A stretch of 46,790 bases of DNA from an uncultured Collinsella sp. (GTDB taxonomy: Bacteria > Actinomycetota > Coriobacteriia > Coriobacteriales > Coriobacteriaceae), in contig CABQLM010000005.1 in NCBI GenBank assembly GCA_902465105.1, positions 1 through 46,790 of the forward strand, read 5' to 3'. Position 1 is the stretch's first letter; each line of letters opens with the position of its first letter. The translations under genes and the position numbers were made by a program. Below the pieces are notes generated by a model that worked only from the letters and a program-made list of their open reading frames with translations, did no database searches and was not told where the DNA came from. Shown here in pieces: positions 11,463 through 26,701 of the stretch.

Positions 11463-13223
11463 GTGGCCGATCAGGACATCAAGATGCTCATCGAGCGCAT
11501 TATGGCCGAGGCCCGAACCCATCAGTCCGCCCGTTTCTCAAACGAAATCTATGCTGACGAGCCGATTCTCAAGACCGGCCGACAGATGCAGAACTTCCTC
11601 CCCGACCAGTACCGCAAGATGCGCGAGATATCGCGCTGGCAAGACGACCCCAAGGGCGGTGCGGGCCGCTGGCTTTCGGAAGCCGAACTTTTCTACCGCC
11701 AAGGCCTGCTGATGGCCGACTTTGAGGACGACTGCCCCTACAACGGCACGTTCAAGTCGTATTTTCCCACCTACAACGCCATGAGCGATCGACAGCTGCG
11801 CGGCTATTTTACCTGGCGTGCACAGGTGCGCCGCGAAACCGTCGAGGAAACGTCTACGTCCTTTGCCTTCCTGTATCTCTATGAGCTGATCTGTGGCATT
11901 GGCGTAGATGACCCGCTCGATGGTTTTAACAAAATCAAAGCCTTTTGGAATGCCTATCGCGTCTTCGAGCCCGGCATCGACCGGTTTGCACGCGTATGGC
12001 TGCAGGATTACGCCGTATTCCACGGGCTCGACCCCAAGCTGCTTCGCGACTCCAAAACCGTCATGTTCGACAACGCCCTTATCGAACTGCGACGCGCCGC
12101 GCGAGACCTTGCACCTGCACCGACGCCGTCGACCCAAGCCCCCAAGCGTCGCAAGGCCTCCGAACCCACACTCCCCCTTCCGCCCGATGAGGAGCGCGAG
12201 GAGCGACTCATGGCCGCCATCAACGCGCTCTCCACGTACAACCTCAATAACTCACGGCTCGATCGCAGCCACCACCGCGATCTGCGCCACGTGGCATGCG
12301 CCGTGTACGTCCGCATGGCGCGCTACTATGACACGCACCGAAAGACCGGTATCGTGGCGAGCTTGTTTGGGGAGGAGACGGCCATGCCCTATACCATGTT
12401 TGCATCGGCCGTGTTCTTTGCACCCGAGCGCCACGAGGACTGCGAATACCGTCTTGACCCCATCCATATCTACCGCTGTCAAAACGGCTTTTGGGAATGT
12501 ATGCGGATTCATGGCAGCAGGCAAAAGAGCAGCAAGCTTGGTGAGATGATGCGCGCCTGTGATCGGCGCCTGCGCCTGGCCTTGGACCCCACTCACCCCC
12601 TTAAGGAAGAAAAGGTCCCCAAATATTTGGCCAAGATCATCGATGACGAGATCGTGGCATGGCTGTCGTGGGATGCCGCGCACCAGCCCGTCAAGATCGA
12701 TATCGACCTGAGCCAGCTGGGGCACATTCGGAGCGCCGCCGCGCAAACGCGCGAAGCGCTTTTAATCGATGAGGAGCGCGAGGACGATATACTCGCAGAG
12801 GTCGATGAGGCAGGCTCCGAACAGCCGGAAGCCGAGCCCTCGGCAGACGTGTTTGTCGAGGCGGTCGCGGCGGCCACGGAGCAGAACGTGGACGACGAGT
12901 CAACCATTTCCACCGAACAGTTTGGTGTCGTGGCGCCGCTTCTCGTGCCGACGCCCCCGCCCGCAGCGGCTGCGCCCACCGACGCCACGGACGAACTCGC
13001 GCCTGCCGCAACCACGTACCTGCGCGCACTGCTCGAACAGAACACGGCGCAGGCGACATTGGCGGTAGAGAGGTCGGAACAGAGCGAGGACATGCTCGTC
13101 GACACCATCAACGAGGCGCTCTTTGACCTGGTGGGTGACACCGTAATTGAATTTGGTGCGGCAGGACCGCAAATTATCGAGGACTACGAAGCAGACGTGA
13201 GAGGATACCTAGACCATGAGTGA
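11463..13223 (+). CDS. TerB-N/TerB-C domain protein
   Basis: The 586-residue cytoplasmic protein has a TerB-N domain (about residues 45-210). Its signature segments are FYRQGLLMADFEDDCPY, the PTYNAMSDRQLRGYFTWRAQVR region and FAFLYLYELICGIG. A TerB-C domain (about 440-586) ends the protein, and an Ala/Glu/Pro-rich linker (about 425-520) separates the two. TerB-family domains are linked to tellurite-type stress systems and phage resistance and have been noted beside helicases and ATPases. The GTG start follows GAGGAGA. The stop overlaps the next start by 8 bases, so it is the first gene of a three-gene operon. Its role is unknown; an adaptor or sensor for the ATPase and helicase is my inference. 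Confidence 0.85.
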   Translation: MADQDIKMLIERIMAEARTHQSARFSNEIYADEPILKTGRQMQNFLPDQYRKMREISRWQDDPKGGAGRWLSEAELFYRQGLLMADFEDDCPYNGTFKSYFPTYNAMSDRQLRGYFTWRAQVRRETVEETSTSFAFLYLYELICGIGVDDPLDGFNKIKAFWNAYRVFEPGIDRFARVWLQDYAVFHGLDPKLLRDSKTVMFDNALIELRRAARDLAPAPTPSTQAPKRRKASEPTLPLPPDEEREERLMAAINALSTYNLNNSRLDRSHHRDLRHVACAVYVRMARYYDTHRKTGIVASLFGEETAMPYTMFASAVFFAPERHEDCEYRLDPIHIYRCQNGFWECMRIHGSRQKSSKLGEMMRACDRRLRLALDPTHPLKEEKVPKYLAKIIDDEIVAWLSWDAAHQPVKIDIDLSQLGHIRSAAAQTREALLIDEEREDDILAEVDEAGSEQPEAEPSADVFVEAVAAATEQNVDDESTISTEQFGVVAPLLVPTPPPAAAAPTDATDELAPAATTYLRALLEQNTAQATLAVERSEQSEDMLVDTINEALFDLVGDTVIEFGAAGPQIIEDYEADVRGYLDHE

Positions 13224-14520
13224 TACCACATCCGCAGCACCCCGCGTGCCCAAGCGCGTCGCCGCCGTCATTCTCAACTCGCTCAAGGGCGGCGTGGTCC
13301 CGCGCATCGGCCTTCCCTACATCACCGTAGGACGCGAGGTCGAGATTCGCGCCCTGCTCACCGACCTGAGCCTCATCGCCGACGGTGGCGCGAGTTTCCG
13401 GTTTCTAGTCGGTCGCTACGGCGCAGGCAAGAGTTTTTTGCTCCAGACCATCCGCACGCACGCCATGGGCGAGGGGTTCGTCGTCGCCGATGCCGACCTA
13501 TCCCCTGAGCGCCGTCTGCAGGGCGGCCAGGGACAAGGCCTTGCCACCTACCGCGAGCTCATCCGCAACATATCGACCAAGACGCGCCCCGAAGGCGGTG
13601 CGCTCAACCTTATCCTGGATCGTTGGGTCGCCTCGTGTGCCGATGCCGACGAGTCTGCCGTCAATGCCCAACTGGCCCCGCTCGAGGAGATGGTCCACGG
13701 CTTCGACTTCACCCGCATGCTTCGCCGCTATCGCGCGGCCGTATCCGAGGGCGACGAAGAGGCCATGAGCCGCGTGACCAAATGGATACGCGGCGAATAC
13801 CGCACCAAGAGCGAGGCTCGCGCCGAACTGGGTTCCTCAACCATCATCAGCGATGACGACTGGTACGACTACGTTAAGCTCATTGCGCGCTTTTTGGTCT
13901 GCAGCGGCTACAAGGGCATGCTGGTGCTCATCGACGAGCTCGTGAATCTGTATAAGATTCCCAACGCCATCACGCGCCAGTACAACTACGAGAAAATCCT
14001 GACCATGTACAACGACACGCTTCAGGGCAAGGCGCAGTACCTGGGCATGATCATGGGCGGCACGCCAACCTCCATCGAAGACCGCCGCCGCGGCGTGTTC
14101 TCCTACGAGGCCCTGCGCAGCCGTCTCGCTCAGGGCCGTTTTGCGCGCGATGACCTCAAAGACATGCTCGCGCCTATCATCCGCCTGCAGCCGCTCACCT
14201 ACGAGGAGCTGCTGGTGCTCATCGAAAAGCTCATGCAGATCCATGCCGGCTACTTTGGCTGGACGCCCACGCTTACCGAGAACGACTTAGTAGACTTCCT
14301 CAAGATCGAGTTCGGTCGCGTGGGAGCCGACACGCACCTGACGCCCCGTGAAGTCATTCGTGACTTTATCGAGCTGCTCGACATCCTATGCCAAAACCCC
14401 GACGCCAACGTGGCCGAGCTACTGCAAAGCGTCGGCGGCGACGCGCTGGCGCCGGCAGCCGCAACAGGCGACACCGATACCGCAGGCGGCGACCGTAACT
14501 TCGCCGAATTCACCATCTAA
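13216..14520 (+). CDS. BREX-type P-loop ATPase (BrxD-like)
   Basis: This 434-residue P-loop protein has Walker A GRYGAGKS at residues 66-73 and Walker B MLVLIDE ending at Glu 241. Other family-like segments are GREVEIRALL before the P-loop, an MIMGGTPTSIEDRRRG region, the YEALRSRLAQGRF segment and the C-terminal LTPREVIRDFIELLD. The length and motif pattern match the BREX ATP-binding family (DUF2791), specifically BrxD, which in type 2 BREX is found beside the helicase BrxHI. The neighbour downstream here is also BrxHI-like, but no PglX methylase, PglZ or BrxC-type gene is present. It probably remodels or loads a DNA complex using ATP. Confidence 0.85.
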   Translation: MSDTTSAAPRVPKRVAAVILNSLKGGVVPRIGLPYITVGREVEIRALLTDLSLIADGGASFRFLVGRYGAGKSFLLQTIRTHAMGEGFVVADADLSPERRLQGGQGQGLATYRELIRNISTKTRPEGGALNLILDRWVASCADADESAVNAQLAPLEEMVHGFDFTRMLRRYRAAVSEGDEEAMSRVTKWIRGEYRTKSEARAELGSSTIISDDDWYDYVKLIARFLVCSGYKGMLVLIDELVNLYKIPNAITRQYNYEKILTMYNDTLQGKAQYLGMIMGGTPTSIEDRRRGVFSYEALRSRLAQGRFARDDLKDMLAPIIRLQPLTYEELLVLIEKLMQIHAGYFGWTPTLTENDLVDFLKIEFGRVGADTHLTPREVIRDFIELLDILCQNPDANVAELLQSVGGDALAPAAATGDTDTAGGDRNFAEFTI

Positions 14521-14555
14521 CCTGCCAAAAAGGGACAGGTTTATTTTGGCAGGTT
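14519..14555 (+). repeat. 37-nt hairpin with GGGACAGG loop between ATPase and helicase genes
   Basis: A perfect 12-bp stem (14519-14530 with 14544-14555, arm AACCTGCCAAAA) starts on the last bases of the ATPase stop. Its loop holds AGGGACAGG. Only TTATC follows, so it is at best a partial terminator that could lower helicase expression. A hairpin of the same 37-nt length and the same loop, with a different stem, lies at 28633-28669 on the other strand. Confidence 0.75.
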
Positions 14556-14636
14556 TTATCTGGGCAAACGTTGAAGCAATAATGCAGCAAGCCACTGCCC
14601 GCAGCGTTGAGAGATTCGCTTTTGAAAGGAGGCCTC

Positions 14637-17081
14637 GTGAACGCCTTTGACCGCTACGCCCCGTTTATCCAAGACTTCATCTACTCCCACGATTGGGAGA
14701 GCCTGCGCTCCATTCAGGTTGCGGCGGCAGATGCCATCTTTAACACACAAGACAATGTACTCCTGACGGCATCCACAGCTTCCGGCAAAACCGAAGCGGC
14801 CTTCTTTCCTATCCTGACCGAGTTTTGGGAGAACCCGCCCGCAAGCGTTGGCGCCCTCTACATTGGCCCCCTCAAGGCACTCATCAATGATCAGTTCGTC
14901 CGTCTCAATGACCTGTGCGAAGAAGCCGACATCCCCGTCTGGCACTGGCATGGCGATGTCTCGCAGTCGCACAAGACCAAGCTCATCAAAAAGCCGAGCG
15001 GCATCTTGCAGATTACGCCCGAGTCGCTCGAGGCGCTCCTGATCCATAAGCACATGGCGATCCCGCGCATGTTCTGCGACCTGCGCTATGTGGTCATCGA
15101 CGAGGTCCATTCGCTCATGCGCGGCGACCGTGGCGGGCAAACGCTCTGCCTTATCGAGCGACTCTCGCGCATGGCCGGCGTGCAACCTCGCCGCATCGGC
15201 CTTTCGGCCACCATCGGTGACCCCGAGCGCACGGGTGCTTTTCTCTCACAGGGAACGGGGCGCGACTGCGTTATCCCCCGCTTTGAAGAACCGCGCCGCG
15301 TGTGGCGTATCTCCATGGAGCACTTCTACAACTCGGGCCCCCAGGCGCAGCAGCGGGGATTCGAAAGAATGGGCCCTCAAGAGGCCGAAGTGCTTGCGTG
15401 CGAGCGCATTGAGGCAGTGGCACCCGCGGCACTGCCGGCCGACACCCAAGACATGCGCCACAGCGGACAGCTCACACAGGAGGAGCGCCGTCAACGTCGC
15501 GAGCGGGCACGGGGCAAGGCCGCACCCAAGGACCGCCGAACTTCCTCGGCCCCCGAGGGCGAAGTCGACATCCCCCGAGCACCCGAACAGGCATTACTCT
15601 GCCCCACCGACACAGCACCAGACAACGCCGACCCCGGCATGGGCTATATCTTTGAGCACACGCGCGGCCGCAAGTGCCTGGTCTTTGCCAACTCGCGCGA
15701 GGAGGCGGAGGCCGTATGCTCCATGCTGCGCAGCTACTGCGAGAGCCGACACGAGCCCGACCGTTTCCTCATCCATCACGGCAATCTTTCGGCATCGTTG
15801 CGCGAGACGGCAGAAGAGCTTATGCGCGACGAGGAACAGGCACAGACGACCGTCACCACCTCTACGCTTGAGCTTGGCATCGATATCGGCCGTCTGGAGC
15901 GCGCCTTCCAGATCGACGCGCCGTTTACCGTCAGCTCCTTTTTGCAGCGTATGGGCCGCACGGGACGCCGCGATCTTCCGCCTGAGATGTGGTTCGTCAT
16001 GCGCGAGGAAGAGCCCGAGCCGCGCACGATGATGCCCGAGACCATTCCGTGGAAGCTCCTGCAAGGCATCGCGCTCGTACAACTCTATCGCGAGGAAAAA
16101 TGGGTCGAGCCGCCCGAGCTCGATCGACTCCCCTACAGTCTGCTCTACCACCAGACCATGTCGACCCTCGCCAGTACCGGAGAGCTCACGCCGGCCGAAC
16201 TTGCCCAGCGCGTGCTCACACTCAGCTATTTCCATCGCATCTCGGCCGATGACTATCGCATACTGCTGCGTCACCTCATCAAGATCGACCACATCCAGGT
16301 CACCGAGGGCGGTGGGCTCATCGTGGGTCTCGCGGGCGAGCGCATCATTAACAACTTTAAGTTCTACGCCGTATTCCAGGAAAACGAGGAGTTTACCGTT
16401 CGCAGCGAATCGGCCGAGCTGGGCACGATTGTCAACCCGCCACCACCTGGCGAGCGCATCGCCATCGCCGGACACTGCTGGATTGTCGAGGAAGTGGACT
16501 GGAAGCGCCATACCGTCTTTGCCACGCAGGTCAGGGGCCGTGTGCCGGCCTACTTTGGCGACTGCCCCGGCGACATCAACACACATGTGCTCGAACGCAT
16601 GCGCAAAGCGCTCAATGAACATGCCACGTATCCGTACCTCATGGGTAACGCGCGGGCCCGCTTGGCGCAGGCTCGCCATACGGCCGAGATTTCGGGTGCG
16701 GGAACCAAGCCACTCATCAACCTGGGTGGCGACACCTGGGTACTCTTCCCCTGGCTGGGCAGTTACGCCTTTTTGGCACTCGAGCGCATGCTCAAGATTA
16801 AGTGTGCCGCGGAGCTGGGCCTTCGCGGACTCGACCCATCGCGCCCGTACTTTATGCAGTTTAAGATGAAGGCCGACGAGGAGACGTTCTTTGAGGTGCT
16901 CGCCGCCGAGGCCGAGAAGGACTTCAATCCCATCGAGCTCGTCTATCCCGGCGAGGTGCCTTATTTTGATCGCTACGACGAGTACGTTCCCGAGGAGCTC
17001 GTGCGCAAAGGCTTTGCCGAAGGCGTGCTCGACATAGAGGGCATGAAGCAGCGTGTCCGCAGCTGGGGCGACCACACATAA
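14637..17081 (+). CDS. Superfamily 2 DEAD/DEAH helicase (Lhr/BrxHI-like)
   Basis: The 814-residue helicase has motif I TASTASGKTEA (Lys 51), GPLKALINDQ (motif Ia), DEVH at 155-158 (motif II), LSATIG (motif III) and QRMGRTGRR (motif VI). A long charged insertion lies between the two RecA folds (about residues 260-330). A C-terminal region of more than 350 residues follows, with the winged-helix-like layout of Lhr-type enzymes. It resembles BrxHI of type 2 BREX and Lhr-core helicases that move on DNA or RNA:DNA hybrids. The GTG at 14637 follows AAAGGAGG. It is the third gene of the TerB/ATPase/helicase operon, separated from the second by a hairpin. Confidence 0.9.
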   Translation: MNAFDRYAPFIQDFIYSHDWESLRSIQVAAADAIFNTQDNVLLTASTASGKTEAAFFPILTEFWENPPASVGALYIGPLKALINDQFVRLNDLCEEADIPVWHWHGDVSQSHKTKLIKKPSGILQITPESLEALLIHKHMAIPRMFCDLRYVVIDEVHSLMRGDRGGQTLCLIERLSRMAGVQPRRIGLSATIGDPERTGAFLSQGTGRDCVIPRFEEPRRVWRISMEHFYNSGPQAQQRGFERMGPQEAEVLACERIEAVAPAALPADTQDMRHSGQLTQEERRQRRERARGKAAPKDRRTSSAPEGEVDIPRAPEQALLCPTDTAPDNADPGMGYIFEHTRGRKCLVFANSREEAEAVCSMLRSYCESRHEPDRFLIHHGNLSASLRETAEELMRDEEQAQTTVTTSTLELGIDIGRLERAFQIDAPFTVSSFLQRMGRTGRRDLPPEMWFVMREEEPEPRTMMPETIPWKLLQGIALVQLYREEKWVEPPELDRLPYSLLYHQTMSTLASTGELTPAELAQRVLTLSYFHRISADDYRILLRHLIKIDHIQVTEGGGLIVGLAGERIINNFKFYAVFQENEEFTVRSESAELGTIVNPPPPGERIAIAGHCWIVEEVDWKRHTVFATQVRGRVPAYFGDCPGDINTHVLERMRKALNEHATYPYLMGNARARLAQARHTAEISGAGTKPLINLGGDTWVLFPWLGSYAFLALERMLKIKCAAELGLRGLDPSRPYFMQFKMKADEETFFEVLAAEAEKDFNPIELVYPGEVPYFDRYDEYVPEELVRKGFAEGVLDIEGMKQRVRSWGDHT

Positions 17082-24019: not shown

Positions 24020-26701
24020 ATGGCACAGACCACGACAGATACCGCCGCCGGCACCGTCTCCGGCGCCGGCGCCGCCAGTTCATTCTCGGGCGGCACGGGA
24101 ACCGAAGCCGAGTTCGGCTCGCTCGGCGCGCTCTCCCCCACCTGGTGGGAGCCCGAGGATGGCAGTGAGCCCGAACCATGGCTCACGCCCGATCAGGCCT
24201 TCGAACGCTTCTTTGAATGGACGAGCGATCGCGGCATTGAACTGTGGGATCACCAAGAAGAGGCCCTCATGGACCTAGCCGCCGGCGATCACGTCATTTT
24301 GGGCACGCCAACCGGATCGGGCAAGTCGCTTGTCGCGCTGGGCATGCTCTTTATGGGCATGGCACAGGGCAAGCGCTGCTATTACACGGCGCCCATCAAG
24401 GCCCTGGTCAGCGAAAAGTTTTTTGACCTGGTACAGGTGCTCGGCCGCGATAACGTAGGCATGATCACCGGCGACACGCATATCAACACCAAGGCTCCCG
24501 TCATCTGCTGCACGGCCGAAATCCTTGCCAACGACGCACTGCGCGAGGGCGAGGACGCCGACGTGGGCTGTGTGGCCATGGACGAGTTCCACTACTTTGC
24601 CGACCCCGATCGCGGCTGGGCCTGGCAGGTGCCGCTGCTCACCCTGCCCCACACGCAGTTTATGCTCATGAGCGCTACGCTCGGCGATGTCACTGCCATC
24701 GCCGCCTCTCTCGAAGAGCACACCGGCGCTGCTTGCGACCTGGTTGTCGACGCCCCGCGCCCCGTGCCCCTGAGCTATGACTACGTGACGACCTCGCTCG
24801 AGGGCACCGTCGAGCTCGCCATGCGCCGCGGAGAGGCCCCACTCTACATCGTGCACTTTAGTCAGGACGCCGCGCTTGCCACGGCACAGTCGCTTGCCAA
24901 CTTTGGCATCGCTAGCAAGGAGCAGCGCGAGGCCATTAAGGAAGCTGCCAAAGGCACGAGTTTCTCCACCGCCTTCGGCAAGATTCTCAAGCGCCTGCTC
25001 GGCTGCGGCGTCGGCGTGCACCACGCCGGTATGCTGCCGCGCTATCGCCTACTGGTTGAGCGCCTGGCGCAGCAGGGCCTGCTGCCCGTCATCTGCGGCA
25101 CCGATACGCTCGGCGTCGGCATCAACGTACCCATCCACACCGTGGTGCTCACCGCGCTCACCAAGTTCGATGGCTACAAAATGCGTCGTCTGCGCGCCCG
25201 CGAGTTCCATCAGATTGCCGGTCGCGCCGGCCGCTCGGGCTTCGACACCGAGGGCATGGTCATCGCCGAGGCGCCGGAGCACGAGATCGAAAACGCCAAG
25301 CTTATGGTCAAAGCGGGCGACGACCCCAAAAAACTCCGTAAGATTAAAAAGAAAAAGGCCCCCGAGGGCTTTGTCACCTGGAACAAGCAGACCTTTGAGC
25401 GCCTAATCGAGACGCAGCCCGAGACGCTTAAGCCGCGCCTGCGCATCACGCACTCCATGGTGATTAGCGTGGTCGAGCAGGGCGGCGATGCCCGCGCCCG
25501 CGTACACGACCTCATCGAGACGAGCCTACAGACTCCCGAGGAAAAGGCTAAGCTCGAGGTTCGCGCCGACGAAATCTTCGCCACGCTCATCGATTCCGGC
25601 GTCGTCGTTCGCACCGAGGTGCCGCCCGCGCCTGACGCCCCGGCTGACGCCGCACCAGACATCGACTATGCGCTGACGGTCGATCTGCCCGAGGACTTCG
25701 CGCTCGATCAGCCGCTCTCGCCGTTCTTGCTTGCCGCGTTGGAGCTGCTCGACCCCGAGAGCGAGACCTATACCATGGATCTGATCTCGATGGTCGAGGC
25801 AACGCTCGAGGATCCCAAGCAGGTGCTGCGCGCACAGGAGCGCGCAGCACGCGATCGTGCTATGGCCGAGATGAAGGCCGACGGCATCGAGTATGAGGAG
25901 CGCTTGGAGCGCATCCAGGACGTCACGTACGAAAAGCCGCTCGAGAATTTGCTCGACGCCGCCTTTGACAAGTACTGCCAGGAAGTGCCCTGGGCCAACG
26001 ACTACCAGCTCTCTCCCAAGAGCGTCCTGCGCGACATGCTGGAAAGCGCGAGCGATTTTAAGGGTTACATTCAAAAGCTCGGCATCGCCCGCTCCGAGGG
26101 CATTTTGCTGCGCTACCTCGCAGAGGCCTACCGCTCACTCGATCGCACCGTGCCCATCGAAAAGCGTGACGAGCGCCTACGCGACATTATCTCGTGGCTC
26201 GGCTTTGTGGTGCGCTCGGTGGACTCGAGCCTGGTGGACGAATGGGAAAACGCCGGCAACCCGGCAGCCCTCGACGCCGCGCCACCGCAAGGCATCGACG
26301 AAGTCGTGACGGACCGCCGTGGCTGCACGCTGTTGGTGCGCAACGCGCTCTTCCGCCGTGTGACCCTTGCCGCCCGCGAGCATGTGCGCGACCTAGGCGA
26401 GCTCGACGACGACTGGGGCATGAGCGAGATCCGCTGGCAAAAAGCCCTCGATGCCTACCACGAGCAGCACGAGGAAATCCTCACCGACGGCGACGCCCGC
26501 AGCTCCGCGATGTTCACCATCGACGAGAGCGACGAGAAGACCGATCACGTGTGGCACGTGCACCAGATTTTTGCCGACGAAGATGGCGACCACGACTTTG
26601 GCATCATGGGCGATGTCGATCTGGACGCCACGCAAGACGGCGGCGAGGCCATCTTCAAAAACTACCGCGTCGGCTTTATCGAGGACCTGCTCGAGGACTA
26701 G
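24020..26701 (+). CDS. Ski2-like DEAD/DEAH helicase with DUF3516 C-terminus
   Basis: The 893-residue helicase has a low-complexity Gly/Ala/Ser N-terminus (about residues 8-35), motif I GTPTGSGKS (95-103), motif II DEFH (188-191), motif III MSAT (217-220) and motif VI QIAGRAGRSG. A long C-terminal region of the DUF3516 type follows; this pairing is common in Actinobacteria. Ski2-like enzymes unwind RNA, and some act in RNA decay. It is a single-gene unit preceded by the copy A repeat and ended by a strong terminator. The ATG at 24020 is the first in-frame start, with CGCGAGAGAAAG before it as a modest site. Confidence 0.9.
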   Translation: MAQTTTDTAAGTVSGAGAASSFSGGTGTEAEFGSLGALSPTWWEPEDGSEPEPWLTPDQAFERFFEWTSDRGIELWDHQEEALMDLAAGDHVILGTPTGSGKSLVALGMLFMGMAQGKRCYYTAPIKALVSEKFFDLVQVLGRDNVGMITGDTHINTKAPVICCTAEILANDALREGEDADVGCVAMDEFHYFADPDRGWAWQVPLLTLPHTQFMLMSATLGDVTAIAASLEEHTGAACDLVVDAPRPVPLSYDYVTTSLEGTVELAMRRGEAPLYIVHFSQDAALATAQSLANFGIASKEQREAIKEAAKGTSFSTAFGKILKRLLGCGVGVHHAGMLPRYRLLVERLAQQGLLPVICGTDTLGVGINVPIHTVVLTALTKFDGYKMRRLRAREFHQIAGRAGRSGFDTEGMVIAEAPEHEIENAKLMVKAGDDPKKLRKIKKKKAPEGFVTWNKQTFERLIETQPETLKPRLRITHSMVISVVEQGGDARARVHDLIETSLQTPEEKAKLEVRADEIFATLIDSGVVVRTEVPPAPDAPADAAPDIDYALTVDLPEDFALDQPLSPFLLAALELLDPESETYTMDLISMVEATLEDPKQVLRAQERAARDRAMAEMKADGIEYEERLERIQDVTYEKPLENLLDAAFDKYCQEVPWANDYQLSPKSVLRDMLESASDFKGYIQKLGIARSEGILLRYLAEAYRSLDRTVPIEKRDERLRDIISWLGFVVRSVDSSLVDEWENAGNPAALDAAPPQGIDEVVTDRRGCTLLVRNALFRRVTLAAREHVRDLGELDDDWGMSEIRWQKALDAYHEQHEEILTDGDARSSAMFTIDESDEKTDHVWHVHQIFADEDGDHDFGIMGDVDLDATQDGGEAIFKNYRVGFIEDLLED

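Follow-up and report, generated by a model that had tools for sequence, protein, structure and literature searches.

A predicted Shango (SngABC) anti-phage operon, probably a core and mainly vertically inherited system, in Collinsella

A compact operon of three genes, here named sngA, sngB and sngC after the anti-phage system Shango, was investigated in a 46,790-nucleotide stretch of an uncultured Collinsella sp. (GenBank assembly GCA_902465105.1, contig CABQLM010000005.1, hereafter the window; Table 1). A preliminary description of this DNA had placed a TerB_N/TerB_C protein, an ATPase and a helicase together at positions 11463-17081, and Pfam domains and open reading frames (ORFs) agree with that arrangement. 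The sngA product matched TerB_N (110.9 bits) and TerB_C (55.2 bits), the sngB product BrxC_BrxD (499 bits), and the sngC product DEAD (92.9 bits) and Helicase_C (65.6 bits), with sngA and sngB overlapping by 8 bases. The Pfam search reported no match to TerB (PF05099) for SngA of the window, and a review table lists Shango under this family (PMC10952713). No Rfam match was obtained in the window at gathering scores.

Table 1. Positions of the Shango genes and of the hairpin between sngB and sngC in the window.
Feature	Position	Strand	Description
sngA	11463..13223	+	586 aa; TerB_N/TerB_C protein
sngB	13216..14520	+	434 aa; AAA+ ATPase; Walker A G66..K72 S73, Walker B D240 E241
hairpin	14519..14555	+	12-bp outer stem, starts inside the sngB stop codon; short T run after
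sngC	14637..17081	+	814 aa from GTG 14637; superfamily 2 (SF2) DEAD/DEAH helicase of the BrxHI/Lhr-like kind
sngC mechanical ORF	14607..17081	+	824 aa

The translation start of sngC is most likely the GTG codon, giving the 814 residues of the preliminary description, because AGGAGG lies directly 5' of it, because the relative L001 has ATG in its place, and because alignments with divergent relatives begin mostly at residues 4-14 of the longer mechanical ORF. The operon has the A-B-C gene order with intact catalytic motifs. The Walker A and B residues of SngB (G66, K72, S73, D240 and E241), also described as intact earlier, were invariant in 19 aligned SngB sequences, and the helicase motifs of SngC, which we take to be motifs I, II, III and VI, were conserved across 65 SngC rows including the window. 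These motif and conservation alignments kept 58, 60 and 65 rows, window included, with short rows and G193 dropped. SngC of the window is 94 residues longer than the 720-position SngC profile and varies most, with little conservation, between its two helicase lobes (residues about 237-333); it is also 65-81 residues longer than SngC of the two plasmid trios described below.

Judged by profile matches, the operon is a complete copy of the known anti-phage system Shango and not a new system. The best PADLOC family for SngA was SngA itself (254 bits, residues 29-581), SngB scored 562 bits with the SngB model versus 133 with BrxD, and SngC scored 916 bits with the SngC model versus 409 with BrxHI, leaving the Shango models ahead by 429 and 507 bits. 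SngB also missed the NCBIfam BrxD cut-off (133.6 versus the required 350 bits), and the BrxD and BrxHI family names first given to the two proteins were dropped. A degenerate or partial type 2 bacteriophage exclusion (BREX) locus in which BrxD and BrxHI are left over would account for the BrxC_BrxD match of SngB and the 409-bit resemblance of SngC to BrxHI. The profiles do relate BrxD to SngB and BrxHI to SngC as homologues, but with scores lower by the margins above. Unlike in BREX, PglX, PglZ and BrxC were not seen in the window, in line with the earlier view of a compact defence-type system lacking them. PglX and BrxC are longer than 893 residues, and no window-internal ORF exceeds that length, the two above 800 residues being helicases of 893 and 824 residues (ORFs running off the window ends are unlisted). 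Moreover, PglZ was found in 10 of 35 genomes of the genus and never at the Shango locus. Given the profile scores, the missed BrxD cut-off, the ORF sizes and the location of PglZ, a BREX remnant was set aside as highly improbable. The earlier picture of a stripped-down system was thus right about the gene set and wrong in leaving it unnamed and derived from BREX, having missed the name Shango.

Very little probability is likewise left for a tellurite or metal stress operon with the TerB-type SngA as metal sensor. The TerB_N/TerB_C domains of SngA speak for it, but SngA falls in the SngA profile family and no other Ter protein was found among ten scanned neighbours, and the explanation was set aside on these two points.

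The Shango systems of Pseudomonas aeruginosa PA14 and Escherichia coli have the same three proteins by profile and the same TerB-ATPase-helicase layout. The plate assays described for PA14 Shango on PAO1 gave modest, 10-100-fold protection against many phages but not all (PMC10250203). A table from 2024 classes the mechanism of Shango as unknown (PMC10855318), an account of a rumen survey includes Shango among the systems detected by DefenseFinder (PMC13356809), and the authors of work on Hachiman group SngC, BrxHI, DruE and DpdJ, in their remarks on these helicases, in one potentially distinct clade (PMC12278908). Our literature search, which misses most subscription journals, found neither a paper on the mechanism of Shango nor a report of Shango in Collinsella.

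To count SngC we used strict limits (E <= 1e-100 in the genus and E <= 1e-150 in a class sample), at which none of 14 control genomes matched. A loose search (E <= 0.001) could not serve for counting, since SngC also matches general helicases (58/58 genomes and 13/14 controls). At the strict limit SngC was present in all 43 Collinsella genomes examined, in one of them, 72% complete, only as a fragment. SngB was found in 41 of the 43, missing from the 72%-complete genome and from G016, where the SngA match stops 9 bases before the contig end. SngA was found in 34 of 35 genomes searched; the lone miss (G024) is 87% complete and in about 230 contigs. The three genes are therefore not rarely found together in the genus, contrary to the outcome that would have refuted the preliminary description. 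By comparison, Cas1 (4 of 35 Collinsella genomes), a type I N6_Mtase (15) and PglZ (10) are patchy across the genus, unlike SngC.

In the class sample, 122 of 296 genomes carried SngC and 174 did not match. The 52 matches from the family of Collinsella comprise 37 Collinsella genomes and 15 from other genera (G278 partial). None of the 20 non-matching genomes listed, nearest kin first, belongs to this family, so SngC is taken as present in 52 of 52 family members among the genomes listed. Other families of the order were mixed; many genera of family f5 have SngC, and its listed genera g5, g30 and g36 do not. SngC was found in 18 of 396 genomes of a phylum sample and, with 35 members of the order set apart, in 1 of 361 outside the order (G393).

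By sampled words the genome nearest to the window was G001, with 30% shared. The closest named SngC loci among the matches listed were those of C. aerofaciens and other Collinsella (96-97% identity), followed by C. tanakaei and C. stercoris (77-78%). At least 587 pattern-matched stretches of GTDB contigs encode a relative (E <= 1e-3), and the best 80 of these include records of Clostridia, Lachnospiraceae and Ruminococcus at 66-69% identity. Two loci titled Lachnospiraceae (L250 and L278) depart from the usual A-B-C order, their SngA match being downstream of SngC and on the other strand. Among plasmids, 681 records had SngB relatives below 60% identity (Klebsiella 449, Salmonella 144), a number that may include BrxD. 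The two records opened (Aeromonas caviae and Paenibacillus) both held complete trios, with the same three profile matches in the same order as the window and a TerB_N/TerB_C pair in SngA. Of 136 stretches of viral contigs that matched two SngB peptide patterns, none was a relative.

The Shango locus occupies a conserved chromosomal place among housekeeping genes. Close relatives share the order DUF554-sngA-sngB-sngC-speE-elp3, where the neighbours are presumably SpeE and Elp3, and SpeE or Elp3 lies within the stretch examined, at most 4.4 kb away, in 29 of 32 SngC loci of the genus. The whole order, preceded by the flavin dehydrogenase, is found again in G072 and G079 from another genus; G127 retains DUF554, speE and elp3, and G200 retains the flavin dehydrogenase and DUF554. 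In G133 and G171 of family f5, DUF554 and speE flank the locus on its two sides. The ten neighbours scanned with Pfam and PADLOC, which are part of the window genes, include no defence island; they are two electron transfer flavoprotein (ETF) proteins, the flavin dehydrogenase, DUF554, the SpeE-like gene without a Pfam match, a radical SAM/GNAT protein (Elp3), DUF4097, a helix-turn-helix (HTH) protein, a DUF3516 helicase and a DUF2130 protein. Of the two settings considered in the preliminary description, a conserved place was found, and a defence island was not found among the ten neighbours scanned. This differs from P. aeruginosa, where the pages on Shango place it in a defence hotspot (PMC10250203), and from E. 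coli, where it is reported in genomic islands. It also differs from the copies on the two opened plasmids, whereas the Collinsella copy is chromosomal and in all genomes of the genus examined.

Unlike in known Shango, sngC in Collinsella can stand apart from sngAB. An insert of 1.5-7.6 kb separates sngB and sngC in 11 of 32 genus loci (L047-L055, L057 and L058), and in four sngB is not beside sngC, with SngB on another contig (G006, G022 and G030) or not found (G016). The inserts vary and appear by eye to be mostly metabolic (ABC transporter, methyltransferase, hydrogenase-like, AAA ATPase and ankyrin genes), and insertions seem to recur at this boundary. Divergent species retain both sngAB and sngC, although the two are often apart there. 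In the window this boundary holds a hairpin (-16 kcal/mol, z-score -2.5, equalled by 3 of 200 shuffles). In the window's clade 8 aligned rows, window included, contain both arms, and these near-identical rows provide no covariation evidence. A promoter and terminator scan found no more than chance, with a loop limit that misses this hairpin. Because one base of the left arm is changed in L214 and the T run is broken in L207 and L209, the hairpin is only possibly a terminator; weak and terminator-like, it may attenuate sngC or separate the sngAB and sngC transcripts.

Selection was estimated as the ratio of non-synonymous to synonymous substitution rates (dN/dS). Among 13 close relatives the medians were 0.031 for SngB, 0.050 for SngC and 0.122 for SngA, versus 0.056 for Elp3, 0.068 for DUF554, 0.080 for SpeE and 0.289 for orf19993 (the flavin dehydrogenase gene, FADdh, gave 0.071 from a single pair). 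In comparisons with divergent species, where dS exceeded 1, the values were 0.121 (SngC), 0.146 (SngB) and 0.264 (SngA), compared with 0.195 for Elp3 and 0.216 for SpeE. SngB and SngC are under purifying selection and evolve more slowly than the flanking genes, and SngA evolves faster. For the divergent members of the family, identity to the window had a median of 76.8% for SngB (28 loci), 76.7% for SngC (29) and 50.4% for SngA (29), and for the flanks 67.6% for DUF554 (5), 65.9% for FADdh (6), 63.1% for Elp3 (17) and 52.7% for SpeE (19).

Within the family, SngC distances followed those of RpoB (Spearman 0.62, none of 199 permutations as high; 32 rows, with G016 and G193 left out), and 31 of 33 family rows fell in one clade of the SngC tree with a support of 100 in the approximate likelihood ratio test (SH-aLRT). 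Three results weigh against purely vertical descent. G160 and G218 lie outside the family clade, family monophyly was weakly rejected by the approximately unbiased (AU) test (p = 0.029), and the sequences of families f5 and f2 are intermingled. Some horizontal transfer has therefore probably happened. Two other placements were observed. One genus member (G027, L062) has a fast-evolving SngC with an end branch of 1.98 and 62% identity to the window. In the RpoB tree, G114 of genus g22 (RpoB C9:12343-14214, L116) stands beside the Collinsella genome G018, unlike in the SngC tree, where it groups with its own genus; a mixed assembly or a transfer might account for the difference.

As a rule, anti-phage systems are mobile and unevenly distributed. 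From the observed family membership, intact motifs, gene order, genus-wide presence, conserved place and purifying selection, we consider it likely that a complete Shango SngABC anti-phage system has become core, and is mainly inherited vertically, in Collinsella and its family. Protection against phage was shown for PA14 Shango, and for the Collinsella copy it is a prediction. The trio could instead serve mainly in genome maintenance, for example by monitoring stalled forks or DNA damage, and be a relative of mobile Shango that was domesticated or never had a defensive role. Presence in 43 of 43 genus genomes, the lack of a defence island among the ten scanned neighbours, dN/dS values of SngB and SngC lower than that of Elp3, and the retention of sngAB and sngC even where separated would all suit such a role. 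However, Shango looks accessory elsewhere (1 of 361 genomes outside the order, complete trios on the two opened plasmids), related Shango is anti-phage by assay, and a core defence system could give the same picture; we regard a mainly maintenance role as rather unlikely. With only slightly more confidence, Shango of Collinsella and its family may be an ancient, fixed genome-surveillance machine whose constant housekeeping duty is to keep watch on abnormal replicating DNA and of which phage defence is one outcome, SngAB and SngC being separately encoded, separately regulated and both required.

Predicted structures offer a possible mechanism for a core Shango system. SngA, modelled from an alignment of 33 of 41 available rows (near-copies and two others omitted), is predicted to have a helical body, a disordered linker (about 442-509) and a winged-helix-like C-terminal domain (about 509-586); Foldseek searches of the PDB and of viral libraries gave no match for it at E <= 0.001, and its fold may be new or may have escaped detection. 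SngB is predicted to have the initiator-type AAA+ fold of an Orc1/Cdc6-like loader and is closest to Orc1/Cdc6-type proteins, although its likeness to Orc1/Cdc6 and TnsC ATPases is one of fold only, with 10-18% identity among the matches listed. A sequence search of solved structures found no Shango structure. It matched SngC to the ATP-dependent DNA helicases 5v9x and 7lhl, to YprA and to Brr2/ASCC3/Slh1-type helicases; a match of SngB to a designed repeat protein was not taken as real.

From this anatomy of the proteins we infer their contacts, the loading, the substrate and an anti-phage role in Collinsella. SngB, as an Orc1/Cdc6/TnsC-like initiator-type ATPase, would assemble on DNA, while SngA, with its TerB_N body, flexible linker and C-terminal winged helix, would recognise or tether the target and couple it to SngB. 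The SF2 helicase SngC would then be loaded and translocate on, or unwind, phage or damaged replicating DNA, and its action on the target DNA would block replication. The division of labour suggested in the preliminary description, with TerB sensing or bridging, the ATPase loading and the helicase moving on DNA, would agree with the predicted folds of SngB and SngA.

The new element here is that Shango is in every Collinsella genome examined and is chromosomally anchored across its family. Rare elsewhere in the sampled phylum and universal in the Collinsella examined, it offers a natural setting in which to ask whether a defence system can turn to household duty, and also to study the cellular function of Shango. 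Because Collinsella is common in the gut, its Shango copy is probably widespread in guts.

Among the scanned neighbours, PADLOC gave a weak RmrA match for the HTH protein and generic helicase matches for the DUF3516 protein. The latter, an 893-residue DEAD/DUF3516 helicase at 24020-26701, had weak generic matches to HamB profiles.

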